Source: Burkholderiales bacterium (GTDB lineage Bacteria > Pseudomonadota > Gammaproteobacteria > Burkholderiales > Burkholderiaceae_C). From it: a stretch of DNA of 64,000 bases. The position numbers were made by a program, and so were the translations under genes. The stretch spans positions 16,670 through 80,669 of the forward strand of contig JAIXKN010000065.1 in the NCBI GenBank assembly GCA_026932425.1, written 5' to 3'. Of the stretch, positions 3,503-54,890 are shown piece by piece. The notes under the pieces are model-generated. The model saw only the letters and a list, made by a program, of their open reading frames with translations. It searched no databases and had not been told where the DNA came from. The first letter of the stretch is position 1; the number at the start of each line of letters is the position of its first letter.

Positions 3503-6500
3503 ATGCCCCCGACGAGTCTTCATCTGCTGCACTTCGAGGGGGGCGATGCGCTTCCCGCGTTCCGCGCGCAGGCGCTGCTGGCGCGCCTGCAGGCTGCCTG
3601 CCCGCGCGTGGCGGCGGTGGCCGCGCGGCACGTGCACTGGGCGGGCTTCGATGCGGCGCCGGCCGCAGCCGAGGTCGACAAGCTCGCCGCGCTGCTCGAT
3701 TACGGACCGCGCTACGCGGGGCCGTCGACCGGCGAGTGCGTGCTCGTGATGCCGCGCCTGGGCACGGTCTCGCCCTGGGCGAGCAAGGCGACCGACATCG
3801 CGCGCAACTGCGGGCTGCCGGTGCGGCGCGTCGAGCGCGTCACCGAATACCGGCTCACGCTCGAGAAGCGGCTGCTCGGCGCGGCCAGGCCGCTGACGGA
3901 CGAGGAGCGGCAGGCGCTGGCTGCACTGCTGCACGACCGCATGACCGAGAGCGTGGCCTTCGAGCGCGCGGCTGCGCGCGCGCTCTTCACGCCGCAGCCG
4001 GCGGCAGCGCTCGAACGCGTCGACGTGCTCGGCCGCGGCCGCGAGGCGCTCGTGCAGGCCAACGCCGACTGGGGCCTGGCGCTGGCCGACGACGAGATCG
4101 ACTATCTGGTGGACGCCTTCGGCCGGCTCGGCCGCAACCCGAGCGACGTCGAGCTGATGATGTTCGCGCAGGCCAACAGCGAGCACTGCCGGCACAAGAT
4201 CTTCAACGCGCGCTTCACGATCGACGGGCAGGCGCAGGAGCGCTCGATGTTCGAGATGATCCGCCACACCGAGCGCGTGAGCGGACAGCACACCGTCGTC
4301 GCCTACCACGACAACGCCGCGGTGATGGAAGGGCAGACGATCCGCCGCTGGCTGCCGCAGGGCTTCACGAACGCGCCCGCGTATGCCGCGCGCGAGGAGC
4401 TCGTGCACGTGCTGATGAAGGTCGAGACGCACAACCACCCGACCGCGATCAGCCCCTTCCCGGGTGCCAGCACCGGCGCCGGCGGCGAGATCCGCGACGA
4501 GGGTGCGACCGGGCGCGGCGCGCAGCCCAAGGCCGGCCTCACCGGCTTCTCGGTCGGCCACCTGCACCTGCCGGGCACCGACGAGCCCTGGGAGCGCACG
4601 ACCATCGGCCGGCCCGCGCACATCGCCAGCGCGCTGCAGATCATGACCGAGGGACCGCTGGGCGGTGCGGCCTTCAACAACGAGTTCGGGCGACCCAACC
4701 TCGGCGGCTACTTCCGCGTCTTCGAGCAGCCGGTGGCTGGCGTGATGCGCGGCTATCACAAGCCGATCATGATCGCCGGGGGCCTGGGCAGCATCAGCGC
4801 TTCGCAGACGAAGAAGCGGCCCTTCGGCGAGGGCACGCTGCTGGTGCAGCTCGGCGGCCCGGGCATGCGCATCGGCATGGGGGGCGGTGCCGCGAGTTCG
4901 ATGGCCGCGGGCAGCAACACCGCGGCGCTGGACTTCGACAGCGTGCAGCGCGGCAACCCGGAGATCCAGCGCCGCGCGCAGGAGGTCATCAAGCACTGCT
5001 GGAGCTTGGGGCGCGACAACCCGATCCTCGCGATCCACGACGTCGGCGCCGGGGGGCTGTCCAACGCCTTCCCGGAGCTGGTCGACGGTGCCGGCAAGGG
5101 TGCGATCTTCGACCTGCAGCGCGTGCCGCTCGAGGAAACGGGGCTTGCGCCGAAGGAGGTCTGGTGCAACGAGAGCCAGGAGCGCTACGTGCTGGCCCTC
5201 GACCCGAACCTGCTGCCGCTCTTCGAGCAGATGTGCGCGCGCGAGCGCTGCCCGTTCGCGGTCGTCGGCGTGGCCACCGAGGCGACGCAGCTCGTCGTCG
5301 AGGATGGCCCCGAGCGCGAGGACGGCAGCCGTGTGCGAGTGATCGACATGCCGATGGAGGTGCTGCTCGGCAAGCCGCCGCGCATGCACCGCGAGGTGCA
5401 GCGCGTTCAGCGCCGCGAGGCGCCGCTCGATCTCACCGACGTGGCGCTCGAGGAGGTGATGCTCTCCGTGCTGCGCCATCCGACGGTCGCCAGCAAGCGC
5501 TTCCTCGTGACCATCGGCGACCGCAGCGTCGGCGGCCTCTCGCACCGCGATCCGATGGTCGGCCCCTGGCAGGTGCCGGTGGCCGACGTCGCGGTGACGC
5601 TGGCCGACTTCGAGGGCTTCGCCGGCGAGGCGATGTGCATGGGCGAGCGCACGCCGCTGGCCGCACTCGACGCGCCGGCTTCGGGCCGGATGGCGGTGGG
5701 CGAGGCGATCACGAACCTGCTCGCCGCGCCGATCGAGCTTGCGCGCGTCAAGCTCTCGTGCAACTGGATGGCCGCCTGCGGCGAGCCGGGCGAGGACGCC
5801 GCGCTCTACGACACGGTGCAGGCGGTGGCGATGGAACTCTGCCCGGCGCTGGGCATCGGCGTTCCGGTGGGCAAGGATTCGCTCTCGATGCGCACGCGCT
5901 GGAGCGAGGACGGGCTACCGCGCCAGGTCACCGCGCCGGTGTCGCTGATCGTCAGCGCCTTTGCGACACTCGATGACGTGCGCGGCACGCTGACGCCGCA
6001 GCTGCAGCCGGGCGACACGACGCTGATCCTCATCGACCTCGGCGCCGGCAGGCGGCGCATGGGCGGCTCGATGCTCGCGCAGGTGCTGGGCCAGTTCGGC
6101 GACCAGGTGCCCGACCTCGACGACCCGGCGCGGCTCCTTGCGCTCGTCGCCGCGATCAATGAGCTGCGCGGGCAAGGGCGCATCCTCGCCTATCACGACC
6201 GCAGCGACGGCGGCCTCTGGGCCACCGTCTGCGAGATGGCCTTTGCCGGGCGCCGCGGCGTGAGCCTGAACGTCGACATCCTCGTCACCGAAGGCGACGG
6301 CATCAGCGACAGCCGCGCCGACCACGGCGATTCGAAGAACTGGGCGACACAGGTCGGGCAGCGCCGCCAGCAGCACACGCTGGAGGCGCTCTTCAACGAG
6401 GAACTGGGTGTCGTGATCCAGGTCGAGAGCGCGCGCCGCGACGAGGTCTTCGCGCTGCTGCGCCGCCACGGTCTTTCGCGTGACGCGCACGTCATCGGCA

Positions 6501-47184: not shown

Positions 47185-47329
47185 CGGAGGTGCGTCCTGA
47201 ACGCGAAGGTGCCGGGCGCCAGGGGAGTCCGCTGCTGCCGACCGAATCGTGCGACATGCGCTACCCTTTACTGTTTCGCCCGCGGGCGGCGTCTGCCGCC
47301 GGGCGCGCATTTTAGAGGGGAGCTCGGGG

Positions 47330-49488
<2,159 letters not shown>

Positions 49489-49492
<4 letters not shown>

Positions 49493-50055
49493 AGTCGATC
49501 CGTCGTCTGCTGGGCCTGACGCGCCCCGCCCCGGAACTGCGTGTGCTGATGGTCTGCTCGGGCAACATCTGCCGCTCGCCGACGGCCGAGGGCGTGCTGC
49601 GCGCGAGACTGCAGGCGGCCGGCCTCGAGGCGCGCATCGAGGTCGACTCCGCGGGCACTCAGGGCCTGCACGCGGGCCAAGCGCCGGACCCGCGTGCGAT
49701 TGCGATGGCGCGCCGGCGCGGCTACGATCTGTCGCGCTTGCGGGCGCGGCGCGTGACCGGCGATGACTTCCTTGCCTTCGACCGCATCCTCGCGATGGAC
49801 GAAGGTCACCTCGGGTGGCTGGAGAAGATCGCTCCGGTCGAGGCTCGGACCCGCGTCGAACTGCTGATGACCTATGCGTCGCGGCACCGCGACCGCAGCG
49901 AGGTGCCCGATCCCTACTACGGCTCCGAGCGGGACTTCGCACTGATGCTGGAGCTGGTCGAGGATGCGTGTGCCGGCCTCGCGAGATGTCTTGCCGATGA
50001 GCTGTCGGCGCGCCATCCGCGGTCCGGACCCGCGTCGAAGAATCAGAATACTTGA
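49489..50055 (+). CDS. low-molecular-weight protein-tyrosine phosphatase
   Basis: A 188-residue member of the LMW-PTP/arsenate reductase fold. The P-loop [10 protein letters not shown] has Cys23 and Arg29, and the general acid is in EVPDPYYG. It is some 35 residues longer than the minimal fold at the N- and C-termini. Its ATG overlaps the uvrB stop, so it is co-translated with uvrB. In many betaproteobacteria such a gene precedes iscR; here its stop codon falls inside the iscR -35 element. Confidence 0.93.
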
Positions 50056-50081
50056 TAATTTTACTGGGTTTTGTGTATACT
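50052..50081 (+). promoter_or_regulatory. sigma-70 promoter of the iscR operon
   Basis: TTGATA (50052-50057), an 18-bp spacer and TATACT (50076-50081), a near-consensus promoter inside an unusually AT-rich stretch. It gives an iscR leader of about 115 nt. The -10 is overlapped by the IscR box. Confidence 0.8.
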
Positions 50082-50101
50082 CGACTTGAGAAGTCGGGCT
50101 T
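50077..50101 (+). promoter_or_regulatory. IscR type 1 binding site
   Basis: A 25-bp site with left arm ATACTCGACT (50077-50086), a 5-bp centre and right arm AGTCGGGCTT (50092-50101). The arms match the type 1 consensus (ATA-S-YY-GACT and AGTC-RR-S). The centre departs from the usual A/T. It covers the -10 element and start of transcription, so [Fe-S]-IscR should repress its own operon. Confidence 0.75.
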
Positions 50102-50206
50102 TGGTTCGTATCGAACATGGGTTCGGCTGATGGCGCTCCAGCAGCACGCACCCGTTTCGAACGTGCGGCAGGGCGCCGCCCTTCAAGCGTTCGACAGGAG
50201 ACGATG

Positions 50207-50740
50207 ATGCGATTGACCACCAAGGGCCGCTTTGCGGTGACTGCCATGATCGACCTCGCGCTTCGATCGGGCGCGGGCCCGGTGGCACTGGCGGCAATCA
50301 GCCAGCGGCAGCGCATTTCCTTGTCCTACCTCGAGCAGCTCTTCGGCAAGCTGCGCCGCCACGAGCTGGTCGAGAGCACGCGCGGCCCCGGCGGAGGCTA
50401 TTCGCTCGGGCGTGCGGCCGGGGAGATCACGGTGGCCGACATCATCGTCGCCGTCGACGAGCCGCTGGATGCCACGAGCTGCGGCGGCAAGGAAAACTGC
50501 ATGGGCGAGCACACGGGCAAGTGCATGACGCACGACCTGTGGACGAGTCTGAACACGAAGATGATCGAGTACCTCGATTCGATCTCGCTGAAGAAGCTGG
50601 TCGACGAGCAGCTCGCCAAGGGCATCTCGATCGACGAGGCGCCGGTCAAGCGGGCGATCTCGAGCCAGCCGGTCGTCAAGCCGATCAAGATCACCGCGCC
50701 GAATTCGGTCTTCGCGCTCGGCGCAGCGATGCGCAAGTGA
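50207..50740 (+). CDS. iscR: Fe-S cluster assembly regulator IscR
   Basis: Rrf2-family repressor/activator that senses Fe-S status. The 177-residue product has the winged helix [20 protein letters not shown], then [19 protein letters not shown] and [13 protein letters not shown]. Cluster ligands are Cys92, Cys98, Cys106 and His109. In E. coli the third Cys and the His are at 104 and 107, so the loop CMGEHTGKC has two extra residues. The second of two adjacent ATGs (50207) is chosen because it stands 6 bp after AGGAG. It heads a three-gene iscR-iscS-iscA unit. Confidence 0.95.
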
Positions 50741-50771
50741 GGCTGCGGCGCCGCGGGCTTGCGACGTGAGC

Positions 50772-51971
50772 ATGCGCGCTCCCGGCGGACCGGGCGGGAC
50801 GTCCGGCGGCATGTCCGGGCGCATGCCGATCTACATGGATTACGGCGCAACGACCCCGGTCGATCCGCGCGTCGTGCAGTGCATGCTGCCCTGGCTGGCC
50901 GAGGACTTCGGCAACGCGGCCTCGGGTGGGCACGTCTACGGCTGGCGTGCGCAGGAGGCCGTGGAGACGGCGCGCGCGCAGGTCGCCGCGCTCGTCGGTG
51001 CGGAGGCGGCCGACATCGTCTGGACGAGTGGCGCCACCGAGAGCAACAACCTTGCGATCAAGGGCACGGCGCAGCTCGAGCCGCGGCCGCGCGGTCACAT
51101 CGTGACGCTGCGCACCGAGCACAAGGCGGTGTTGGACTGCGTGCACGCGCTCGAGGCCCAGGGCTTCGAATCGACGCTGCTCGAGGTGCGCGCGGACGGT
51201 CTGCTCGACCTCGACCGGCTGCGCGACGCGCTGCGCGAGGACACGATCCTGGTCTCGGTGATGATGGTGAACAACGAGATCGGCGTCGTGCAGGACATCG
51301 CGGCGATCGGCGCCGTCTGCCGCGAGCGCGGCATCACGCTGCACGTGGATGCGGCCCAGGCCAGCGGCAAGCTGCCGATCGACCTGCGCAGCTTGCCGGT
51401 CGACCTGATGAGCCTGACCGCGCACAAGACCTACGGCCCCAAGGGCATCGGCGCGCTCTTCGTCCGGCGCAGGCCGCGTGTGCGGCTGGTGCCGCAGATG
51501 CACGGTGGCGGACAGGAGCGCGGTCTGCGCAGCGGGACGCTGCCCACGCACCAGTGCGTGGGCATGGGCGAGGCCTTCCGCATCGCGCAGGAAGAGATGG
51601 ACAGCGAATGCGCGCGGATCGCGATCCTGCAGCGGCGGCTGCTGCAGGGGCTCGCAGGCATCGGCGGGGTCAGCGTCAACGGCGACCTGAAGCATCGCGT
51701 CCCGCACAATCTCAATGTCTGCTTCGACGGACTGGGCGGGCAGGCGCTGGCGCCCGAGCTGAAAGCCGTGGCCGCGAGTTCGGGTTCGGCCTGCAGCTCG
51801 GCCAGCCGTACGCCCAGTCATGTGCTCAAGGCCCTGGGCTGCAGCGACGAGCAGGCCCACGCCTCGCTGCGCCTGACCCTCGGTCGCTTCACGACCGAAT
51901 CCGAGATCGACGACACTGTGCGCGAGTTGCAGGCCTGTGTGGCGCGGCTGCGGGAGCTTGCGCACGATTGA
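50772..51971 (+). CDS. iscS: cysteine desulfurase IscS-like, lacking the C-terminal IscU-docking tail
   Basis: PLP enzyme that takes sulfur from cysteine. The product (399 residues from ATG 50772; a GTG at 50766 or ATG 50823 are alternatives) has [16 protein letters not shown] and [15 protein letters not shown]. The PLP Lys is in [11 protein letters not shown], and the mobile-loop Cys is in [17 protein letters not shown]. It resembles IscS up to [16 protein letters not shown], but ends at RLRELAHD. The E. coli protein continues for about 20 more residues, which contact IscU. A Gly/Met-rich N-terminal extension precedes the canonical start. The next gene is iscA, not iscU. Confidence 0.9.
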
Positions 51972-51987
51972 ACAGAGGAAGCTGAAG

Positions 51988-52311
51988 ATGGCCATCACGA
52001 TGACCGAGGCAGCGGCGCGTCACGTCACGCGCTCGCTGGCACAGCGCGGCAAGGGCGTGGGCGTGCGTCTGGGCGTCACGCCTTCGGGCTGCTCGGGCCT
52101 GTCCTACAAGCTCGAATATGCCGACGAGGTCTCGCCGGACGAGCTGGTCTACGAGATGCAGGGCATCAAGATCCTGGTCGATCCGAAGAACCTGCCGTTC
52201 ATCGACGGCACCGAACTCGACTTCGTGCGCGAGGGGCTCAACGAGAGCTTCAGGTTCCGCAATCCGCTGGAGAAGGATCGCTGCGGCTGCGGCGAATCGT
52301 TCCGCGTCTGA
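51988..52311 (+). CDS. iscA: iron-sulfur cluster assembly/carrier protein IscA
   Basis: A-type carrier of 107 residues, the same length as E. coli IscA and very similar to it. It has the three conserved cysteines in TPSGCSGLSYKLE and DRCGCGESFRV, plus GLRLGV-like and FVREGLNESFRFRNP blocks. It lies 16 bp after iscS, the place where iscU normally sits. No iscU, hscB, hscA or fdx follows. The operon ends here and mltD converges from the right. Confidence 0.95.
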   Translation: MAITMTEAAARHVTRSLAQRGKGVGVRLGVTPSGCSGLSYKLEYADEVSPDELVYEMQGIKILVDPKNLPFIDGTELDFVREGLNESFRFRNPLEKDRCGCGESFRV

Positions 52312-52322
52312 GCGGCGGCTGC

Positions 52323-52365
52323 GATCAGGCTCTCGAGCAGAGCGGCCCTGCCGCTTTGCCTGATC
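52323..52365. terminator. nested hairpin after iscA
   Basis: GATCAGGC (52323-52330) pairs with GCCTGATC (52358-52365), enclosing a second hairpin AGCGG/CCGCT (52341-52355). It lies 11 bp past the iscA stop. No T-run follows, so it may end or protect the isc transcript. Confidence 0.45.
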
Positions 52366-52446
52366 CCCGGCTGGGGGCGGGCTGGGCGCGGCTCGGCCCT
52401 GGGGAGCGTTCGGGAGCCAGCGGATCGTAAGCCGCGTCGCGCGTGA

Positions 52447-54123
52447 TCAGCGCGCTGCGGCCACCCGGGTCTGCGCCGCGCTGGGCTTGGTCTTCTTCGT
52501 GGCGTTGCGCGCGGTCTTCGTCGTCACTCGCTTGGTGTTGCGCGCGGCGGTGCGCTTGACTGCGGCAGCGGGCTTTCGGCTTGCGCGCGCCGTCTTGACG
52601 CTGCGCGCCGGCAGCGCGACGGAGACGAGCTGGCCGGGCTTGAAGCTGCTGTTGATCGCAACGCCGTTGATCGAGGCCAGCATGGCCGGCGTCATGCCAT
52701 GCCGACGGGCAAGCGCTGCGACCGTGACCGGCTTACGCCCCTGGACCTTCACGCGCCGTGTCCGCAGCGGCGGCGCCTCGGGCGCCAGCGCGATCTTCGC
52801 GCTCTCGGCGACCGTTTCGCTGACATCGGCGTGCTGGGTGCCGCGAGGCACGAGCAGCGTCGAGCCGGCCTTCACGAGCATGCGTGGGGGGATGTGGTTG
52901 ACCCGGCGCAGTTCGGCCTCGGTCATGCCCGTCATGCGGGCGGCCTCGGCCGGCTTGACCGTGCGCGGCGCGACCCAGGCCGTCCAGCTCGCCAGGTTGC
53001 CGCGGTAGCTGCGCAGGTTGCGCAGGAAGCGGTTGGCGTTGTCGTAGGGGAGCAGGACCTGCGGGGTCCCGGCAGCCAGGATCACGGGCTTGTTGTGCTG
53101 CGGATTGAGCTGCTGGAACTGCTCGAGCGTCAGGCCCGAGAGCTGCGATGCGAGCGCGAGGTCGATGTCGCGGTCGATCGCCACGGGCGTGAAGTAGGGG
53201 TGGTCCTCCAGCGGCGGCAGTGCGATGCCGAAATCCTGCGGGCGCGCGACGATGTTCTTGATCGCCTGCAGCTTGGGGACGTAGTTGCGCGTCTCCTCGG
53301 GCATGCGCAGGTTCTCGTAATCGGCAGGCAGCCCCGCCTTCGCGTTGCGCGCCTGGGCGCGCTGGACGTTGCCCTGGCCCCAGTTGTACGCGGCCAGCGC
53401 GAGGTGCCAGTCGCCGAAGCTGTCGTGCAGCATCTGCAGGTAGTCCAGGGCCGCGCGCGTCGATGCGAGGATGTCGCGACGGTCGTCCCGGAAGAGGTTC
53501 TGCTTGAGTTCGAAGTCGCGCCCGGTGCCCGGCATGAACTGCCACATCCCGGCGGCGCGTGCCACCGACAGCGCCTGGGGATTGAACGCGCTCTCGATGA
53601 AGGGCAGCAGCGCAAGGTCACCGGGCATGCGGCGACGCCTGATTTCCTCGACGATGTGCCAGAGGTAGCGCGATCCGCGCGCCGTCATGCGCTGGACGTA
53701 GTCGGGGCGCTCGGCGTAGTACTGCTCCCACTTGCGCACCAGCTCGTTGTCGAGATCGGGCATCGCGTAGCTCGCGCGCACGCGTTCCCAGAGATCGCCT
53801 CGCGCCGCATCCTCGAGGGGATCGAGGCGAAAGCGCGTCAGGGGCTCGCCCAGTGCCGGATCCTCGTCCGATGAAGCCTCGGGGGCGGACGCCTCGGCCG
53901 CACTGGAGGGGCTGGCGCCGTCGGCGATCGGTGATGCGTTCTCCGTCGCCCGCGGCGCTGCAGTCACGGCTGGCGCGATCGCGGAACCGGATTCCGTGTC
54001 GACGGCCGGTTCAGGCTGCGGATCGGGTTTCTGGGGAGGAATGGGTGCGACGCTGGCGCATCCGGCGAGCACGAGGAGCGCGAGCGCGAGCAGTGGGCGG
54101 CGCAACCAGGACGGCGTCATCAT
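52447..54123 (-). CDS. mltD: membrane-bound lytic murein transglycosylase D-like lipoprotein
   Basis: Cleaves peptidoglycan glycan strands. The 558-residue product starts with a lipoprotein signal (ALALLVLAGCAS, Cys lipidated). A Pro/Ala/Ser/Glu-rich linker follows (to about residue 95), then an SLT domain with the catalytic Glu in FIESAFNPQALS, MWQFMPGTGR and LALAAYNWGQGN. Two LysM-like repeats come next (around TVKPAEAARMTGMTEAELRR and KPVTVAALARRHGMTPAMLA). The last 53 residues are a Lys/Arg/Ala/Thr-rich tail with 17 basic and no acidic residues, unusual for the family. ATG 54123 overlaps the gloB stop. Confidence 0.92.
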   Translation of the reverse strand: MMTPSWLRRPLLALALLVLAGCASVAPIPPQKPDPQPEPAVDTESGSAIAPAVTAAPRATENASPIADGASPSSAAEASAPEASSDEDPALGEPLTRFRLDPLEDAARGDLWERVRASYAMPDLDNELVRKWEQYYAERPDYVQRMTARGSRYLWHIVEEIRRRRMPGDLALLPFIESAFNPQALSVARAAGMWQFMPGTGRDFELKQNLFRDDRRDILASTRAALDYLQMLHDSFGDWHLALAAYNWGQGNVQRAQARNAKAGLPADYENLRMPEETRNYVPKLQAIKNIVARPQDFGIALPPLEDHPYFTPVAIDRDIDLALASQLSGLTLEQFQQLNPQHNKPVILAAGTPQVLLPYDNANRFLRNLRSYRGNLASWTAWVAPRTVKPAEAARMTGMTEAELRRVNHIPPRMLVKAGSTLLVPRGTQHADVSETVAESAKIALAPEAPPLRTRRVKVQGRKPVTVAALARRHGMTPAMLASINGVAINSSFKPGQLVSVALPARSVKTARASRKPAAAVKRTAARNTKRVTTKTARNATKKTKPSAAQTRVAAAR

Positions 54124-54890
54124 CGAAATCGGTTCTTCCATTCACGCAGGGCGGCCAGCACCTGAGCGGGTTCCCGGCTCTCGGCGCCCTGCAGCTGCGC
54201 CGCAGCGACGACCGGCGGTTCACTGCAGCGCAGGAAGGGGTTGATTCGGCGCTCGAGCTCGAGGGTCGACGGCAGCGTGGGCTGGCCCTGCTCGCGCAGT
54301 GCCTGGCAGTGCTCCAGATGCGCGGTCACTGCCGTGTTGCCGGGCTCCACGGCCGCTGCGAAGCGCAGGTTGGAGAGGGTGTACTCGTGCGCGCAGCAGA
54401 CCCGCGTGTCGGCCGGCAGCGAGGCCAGCCGGGTGAGGGATTGCAGCATCTGCTGCGGCGTGCCCTCGAAGATGCGACCGCAGCCGCCCGAGAACAGCGT
54501 GTCGCCGCAGAAGAGCAGCGGCGCCTTCGGTGCGTCGACCTGCGCGTAGGCGATGTGACCCGCGGTGTGGCCGGGAACGTCGATCACCTCGAAGCGAAGG
54601 CCGAGGACGTCGATGTGCTGTCCATCCCGAAGCGGCTCGAAGGGCTGAGGAATCGATTCACGCGCGGGGCCCCAGACGGGGCCCTGCAGCCGGCTGCGCA
54701 GCGCATCGATGCCGCCGACGTGATCGGCGTGGTGATGCGTCACTAGAATGCCTGCCAGACGCAGGTGCAGCCGGTCGAGCGCGGCCGCCACGGGTGCGGC
54801 ATCGCCTGGGTCCACCACCGCAGCTTGCGCGCCGTCGTGCAACATCCAGATGTAGTTGTCGGCGAAGGCGGGAAGGGCAACGAGATCCAT
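54120..54890 (-). CDS. gloB: hydroxyacylglutathione hydrolase (glyoxalase II)
   Basis: Hydrolyses S-lactoylglutathione in methylglyoxal detoxification. The 256-residue product is a metallo-beta-lactamase-fold enzyme with the metal motif [11 protein letters not shown] (His52, His54, Asp56, His57), [11 protein letters not shown] and [14 protein letters not shown]. The substrate-contacting [15 protein letters not shown] follows. It is divergent from the methyltransferase-rnhA pair, as in E. coli (gloB, yafS, rnhA). Translationally coupled to mltD by overlapping codons. Confidence 0.95.

Follow-up and report, generated by a model that had tools for sequence, protein, structure and literature searches.

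The cysteine desulfurase IscS is a hub that divides sulfur between the assembly of iron-sulfur (Fe-S) clusters and the thiolation of tRNAs and cofactors. In iscU-bearing members of the Rubrivivax-like genus studied here, it is encoded in the standard isc operon, iscR-iscS-iscU-iscA-hscB-hscA-fdx. According to two reports, ISC and SUF are mutually exclusive, and a genome as a rule has one of the two (PMC10631705, PMC11559095). Mycobacterium tuberculosis, as portrayed in two further papers, has a truncated ISC with iscS as its single gene next to a complete SUF operon (PMC10848736, PMC8300815). A study of Escherichia coli IscS describes contacts with IscU at residues 309-316 and 347, at the end of helix 11, and along the C-terminal helix (379-391) (PMC2854127). 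C-terminal deletion is reported there to abolish IscU binding, although the table entry reads "Low" and not "No"; the deletions began at 374 or 376, and IscU binding was retained in the point mutants L386R and M389R (PMC2854127). The modification linked to IscU in that study is s2C.

The window, a stretch of 64,000 nucleotides from the genome of a Burkholderiales bacterium, contains an isc operon of three genes, iscR-iscS-iscA, all on the plus strand (Table 1), as the sequence-only reading had proposed. It shares with the standard operon the order of these genes, the uvrB left flank and the IscR-type boxes, but it is without iscU, hscB, hscA and fdx, and its IscS has no tail and an altered IscU-contact helix. 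As had also been noted, iscA occupies the place of iscU behind the iscS stop codon (51969-51971) and is followed by a convergent mltD gene. The catalytic cysteine codon of iscS lies at 51792-51794, and translation could instead begin at an in-frame GTG (50766). IscR and IscA passed the cut-offs of their NCBIfam equivalog models, and IscS passed NF010611 (562 vs. 548) but failed TIGR02006 (554.7 vs. 643.2), its match to the latter stopping at model position 382 of 402. M. tuberculosis and the present case are alike in a truncated ISC, a retained IscS and SUF as the main system, but iscS stands there without other isc genes, whereas here iscR and iscA are present too and close relatives have the full operon. 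No description of the iscR-iscS-iscA layout was found in the open-access literature, as judged from titles and abstract openings.

Table 1. Features of the iscR-iscS-iscA locus, in positions of the window.
Feature	Position	Strand	Remark
Left flank: uvrB and low-molecular-weight phosphatase gene	47327..50055	+	Common to many iscU-bearing relatives
Two tandem 25-bp IscR type-1-like boxes (predicted)	50048-50072, 50077-50101	+	Each 19/25 to consensus
Sigma-70-like promoter TTGATA-18-TATACT, under both boxes	50052-50081	+	
iscR, Rrf2-type regulator, 177 aa	50207..50740	+	TIGR02010 208.8 vs. cut-off 207.55
iscS, group I cysteine desulfurase, 382 aa, without C-terminal IscU-binding tail	50823..51971	+	Alignment, NCBIfam
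Codons of the IscU-contact helix (E. coli IscS residues 309-316)	51735..51758	+	GGQALAPE here
16-bp iscS-iscA gap, iscU position in relatives	51972..51987	+	
iscA, A-type carrier, 107 aa	51988..52311	+	TIGR02011 152.9 vs. cut-off 150.6
mltD-like gene, convergent, changed right flank	52447..54141	-	

The genome that contains the window comprises 3.09 Mb on 110 contigs and is 84% complete. Its single NifU_N match is SufU (TIGR01994 145.1 vs. 92.5; iscU model 52.1 vs. 192.4), and profile searches of the genome gave no match to HscB or the Isc ferredoxin and only matches below the cut-off to HscA. Both ISC membership tests, one on the scaffold IscU and one on HscA/HscB with the Isc ferredoxin, came out negative. 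The suggestion that the scaffold genes had been moved elsewhere in the genome is not supported by these searches and was rejected. The expectation of a suf system elsewhere was correct: the genome has a sufB-C-D-S-U-T operon with an Rrf2 regulator gene behind it. SufB, SufU and SufT passed their cut-offs, SufD (160.4 vs. 222) and SufS (465.6 vs. 475.1) scored below theirs, and the SUF membership test was positive, with sufB, C, D, S and U in one operon. Given the absence of IscU, HscB, HscA and the Isc ferredoxin and the presence of a SUF operon, cluster assembly in this bacterium most likely proceeds through SUF. An 84%-complete genome in 110 contigs might hide iscU, hscBA and fdx in its missing part, but iscS and iscA are neighbors on a single contig and the same absences recur in genomes rated 98-100% complete (G070, G001, and G046), which makes this explanation extremely improbable. 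An assembly gap is ruled out as the cause of the layout, since the genes adjoin on one contig and eight further genomes show the same order.

IscU-type matches were detected in 66 of the 81 genomes of the genus. SufB/D was detected in 17, of which seven also had IscU and ten had neither an IscU-type NifU_N nor HscB. In contrast to the reported rule of one system per genome, ISC-only, SUF+ISC and SUF-only members all occur within these 81 genomes. With the full operon, both systems and the stripped operon side by side, the genus therefore amounts to a natural experiment in the removal of one partner. HscA above the cut-off was found in none of the ten SUF-only genomes vs. all eight ISC-bearing genomes, and the same was true of the Isc ferredoxin (0/10, with one weak match in G046, vs. 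8/8). Five genomes that are 73-93% complete had neither IscU nor SufB/D (G009, G022, G127, G028, and G069); they may be incomplete and were taken as gaps, not losses. One SUF-only genome, G050, gave no close IscS locus and was excluded; iscR-iscS-iscA was present in all nine assembled iscS loci of this group, iscR being cut by a contig end in G005. The sequence-only reading had allowed that relatives might share the layout and have an iscU cluster elsewhere; the layout is indeed shared by nine genomes, but an iscU cluster was found in none of them. Six of the ten SUF-only genomes have another IscS-like desulfurase with about 50% identity to the IscS of the window, located apart from the isc and suf genes (L106 5164-6330, G000:C94; also L105 and L107-L110). 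It could share the work of IscS.

In all nine iscU-less loci iscA lies 16-49 nt behind iscS; the right flank is mltD and gloB in five (the window, G013, G070, G066, and G005) and tsaD in four (G001, G029, G046, and G068). Eight right flanks of iscU-bearing loci were examined, and the five that reach tsaD (L146, L159, L169, L192, and L197) have the order iscA, an acetyltransferase gene (three of the five), hscB, hscA, fdx, tsaD. The four lines with tsaD behind iscA are therefore without iscU before iscA and without the hscB-hscA-fdx block after it. A minimal second machine, in which IscS and IscA under IscR build clusters for special targets (e.g., IscR) and IscA replaces the scaffold, would fit the retention of iscA between two losses in four genomes, which fall on at least two branches in the UvrB and IscR+IscA trees, the position of iscA close behind iscS, and the constraint on IscA pairs (dN/dS 0-0.34). 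We consider such a machine quite improbable: SUF is present in every genome with iscR-iscS-iscA, and the situation at the suf operon, where no IscA-like match at E 1 was found within 20 kb in the window genome, suffices to explain why iscA was retained.

We hold it highly probable, from the comparison of these genomes, that SUF replaced ISC and that the operon is a remnant of a normal isc operon, with IscS kept under IscR to supply sulfur generally and IscA kept as a carrier. The sufBCDSU-sufT operon would have taken over Fe-S cluster building, after which iscU before iscA and the hscB-hscA-fdx genes behind it would have been lost. IscR would keep sensing the Fe-S status of the cell and repress the operon through the two boxes. 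Freed from IscU, IscS would still be a desulfurase, most likely feeding tRNA thiolation, thiamine and molybdenum cofactor, and its tail and contact helix would have decayed once IscU was gone, because IscU would no longer bind there. IscA is most likely an A-type carrier of clusters made on SufBCD, a role proposed because no A-type gene lies within 20 kb around suf.

The promoter with its IscR box, described earlier as intact, proved to be covered by two predicted boxes, and iscR-iscS-iscA would through these still be under IscR control. No third place in the 64 kb scores 19/25 to the type-1 consensus, which was taken as printed in papers on P. aeruginosa; the remaining loci examined have best sites of 18-22 of 25 in front of iscR. 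The hairpin proposed behind iscA stands only as an 8-bp inverted repeat (52323-52330 and 52358-52365) and not as a terminator: the stretch folds no better than shuffled sequence (z -0.26), and the terminator scan reported none within 52312-52446. An IscR box was not found before sufB in 13 suf loci (best sites 13-16 of 25, one locus having only 72 bases upstream). A CATGC/GCATG or ATGCAT inverted repeat is present upstream of sufB (L002 at about 4260-4338; L112-L114, L120, and L122), which resembles an NsrR-like site; in G050, the one locus compared with the NsrR motif, the palindrome before sufB has one mismatch. In several loci the suf operon has an Rrf2 gene at its 3' end, and suf may be under a different Rrf2 regulator than IscR.

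The IscS of the iscU-less loci has lost the parts that bind IscU, a point that the sequence-only reading had missed. The tail, LSPLWxM...W.AH, was present in all 25 iscU-bearing loci of the genus and in six further SUF+ISC genomes, and in none of the nine iscU-less loci. The contact helix reads EGESLIMG in 31 of 31 iscU-bearing sequences of the genus and is altered in nine of nine iscU-less sequences. The alignment of the IscS of the window with that of E. coli spans residues 4-384 of the latter, and the window protein ends two residues further, so that equivalents are kept up to about residue 386 and about the second half of the C-terminal helix is missing together with everything behind it. 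This loss is smaller than the deletions made in E. coli IscS (PMC2854127). Counted over alignment cells, the match was 44% at the 16 conserved contact columns vs. 76% at all 328 conserved columns (permutation p 0.00015, in a test that treats columns as independent, ignores relatedness and counts residues 376-384 among the contacts). The corresponding values were 76% for the six TusA columns and 67% for the eight ThiI/CyaY columns. The catalytic cysteine C328, in its SSGSAC loop, is kept in all nine iscU-less sequences, and the IscS similarity test was positive.

Contacts with other partners were less uniform. The TusA-contact Trp45 is kept in six of nine and replaced by Arg in three (G001, G029, and G068); of the ThiI contacts, Arg220 and Arg237 are kept in all nine and Arg340 in eight, the window having Lys. 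Phe89 is kept in none of the nine, Met239 is Leu in all, Leu333 is kept in four, and residues 112, 116, 225, and 227 are variable. The changes at Trp45, Phe89, Met239, and Leu333 indicate that decay extends beyond the IscU face and do not support a uniform thiolation role; the contact residues appear to back a role of IscS in thiolation only in part. Comparison within the genus marks out those regions of IscS whose apparent purpose is to serve IscU.

All three genes are under sequence constraint, and the earlier description of a reshaped operon, not a wreck, was upheld. The IscR dN/dS was 0.02-0.12 (twelve pairs), and that of IscS was 0.18-0.41 in six iscU-less pairs vs. 0.05-0.12 in six iscU-bearing pairs. 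Decay of the operon into pseudogenes was rejected, since none of the twelve pairs exceeded 0.41. Relative to IscR+IscA, IscS diverged by a median ratio of 1.77 among iscU-less pairs (n = 25) vs. 1.13 among iscU-bearing pairs (n = 590). Judged by these rates, selection on the iscU-less IscS is relaxed and the gene is not dead.

The association of the tail with IscU extends to the order, which was surveyed with 160 genomes, 159 of them at least 95% complete and the remaining one that of the window. PF01592 alone does not separate IscU from NifU, and a gap in E-values was used. A tailed IscS was detected in 112 of the 160 genomes and in none of the 48 without IscU; these 112 are exactly the genomes that have an IscU-type match, and the IscS of one of them, G129, lies in two pieces on different contigs. 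Six of the 48 genomes without IscU had a tail-less IscS with 59-68% identity (G000, G117, G166, G200, G229, and G236), all six with SufB, and the other 42 had no IscS as close. As in the rule reported for ISC and SUF, the presence of IscU and that of SufB are mutually exclusive in this order as well, IscU being absent from 43 of the 48 genomes with SufB vs. five of the 112 without SufB. The tail was also present in 79 of the best 80 named loci among the candidates listed, the eightieth being Rubrivivax sp. SCN 71-131; of the 79, 77 had a full IscU match; of the other two, one has N in its locus and a split match, and one ends at its contig. Three apparent exceptions were rejected: as tailed IscS without iscU, L186 (iscU match split, 134 N in the locus) and L215 (locus ends shortly behind iscS), and as tail-less, L126, where the pattern call was NOTAIL and the tail motif is present with an extension. 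About 17 residues follow the motif in the L126 IscS. Three IscU-bearing genomes of family f8 have a second, standalone, tail-less IscS beside the tailed one (L231, L232, and L233), and the absence of a tail therefore does not in itself indicate the absence of IscU. The tail can serve as an easy sequence mark of whether the main IscS of a genome still cooperates with IscU. A stop codon suspected inside an f8 second copy (G135) was the ordinary gene end. The roughly 11-12 kb around each tail-less IscS gene of families f47 and f11, and around the f8 second copies, contained no match to iscR or iscA, and the three-gene layout is therefore confined to this genus among the genomes searched.

Trees differed in the number of losses, with at least two by UvrB and by IscR+IscA and one by IscS. 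The UvrB tree, for which six of the nine iscU-less lines were available, rejects a single clade (AU p 6e-5) and places G046 next to an iscU-bearing genome (100/100). The IscR+IscA tree places G046 beside the iscU-bearing G064 (100/95) and joins the other eight lines (99/97), although one clade is not rejected (p 0.35). Two scaffold losses are the most economical reading that these two trees suggest. In place of repeated decay, a ready-made iscR-iscS-iscA or an iscS allele could have arisen once and then spread horizontally. This would agree with the IscS core tree, which joins all nine lines (100/100) with the contact helix and tail columns left out, and with TsaD, where G001, G029, and G068 are joined (100/99; four of nine lines available) and one clade including G046 is not rejected (p 0.07). 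The UvrB result and the position of G046 argue against it, and the union in the IscS core tree is perhaps long-branch attraction, since the branches are long and the bootstrap is unsettled. We give such a spread a small but real chance. It is unlikely that scaffold loss and decay of the IscS surface occurred repeatedly in parallel within one genus and left a stable, IscR-controlled IscS-IscA unit for scaffold-free sulfur and cluster delivery. The genus makes the sequence of steps in a switch from ISC to SUF testable. The SufB sequences of 16 of the 17 SUF-bearing genomes of the genus form one clade. That of G034 (L081) groups with other families of the order, outside the genus, and its SUF is probably a separate acquisition.
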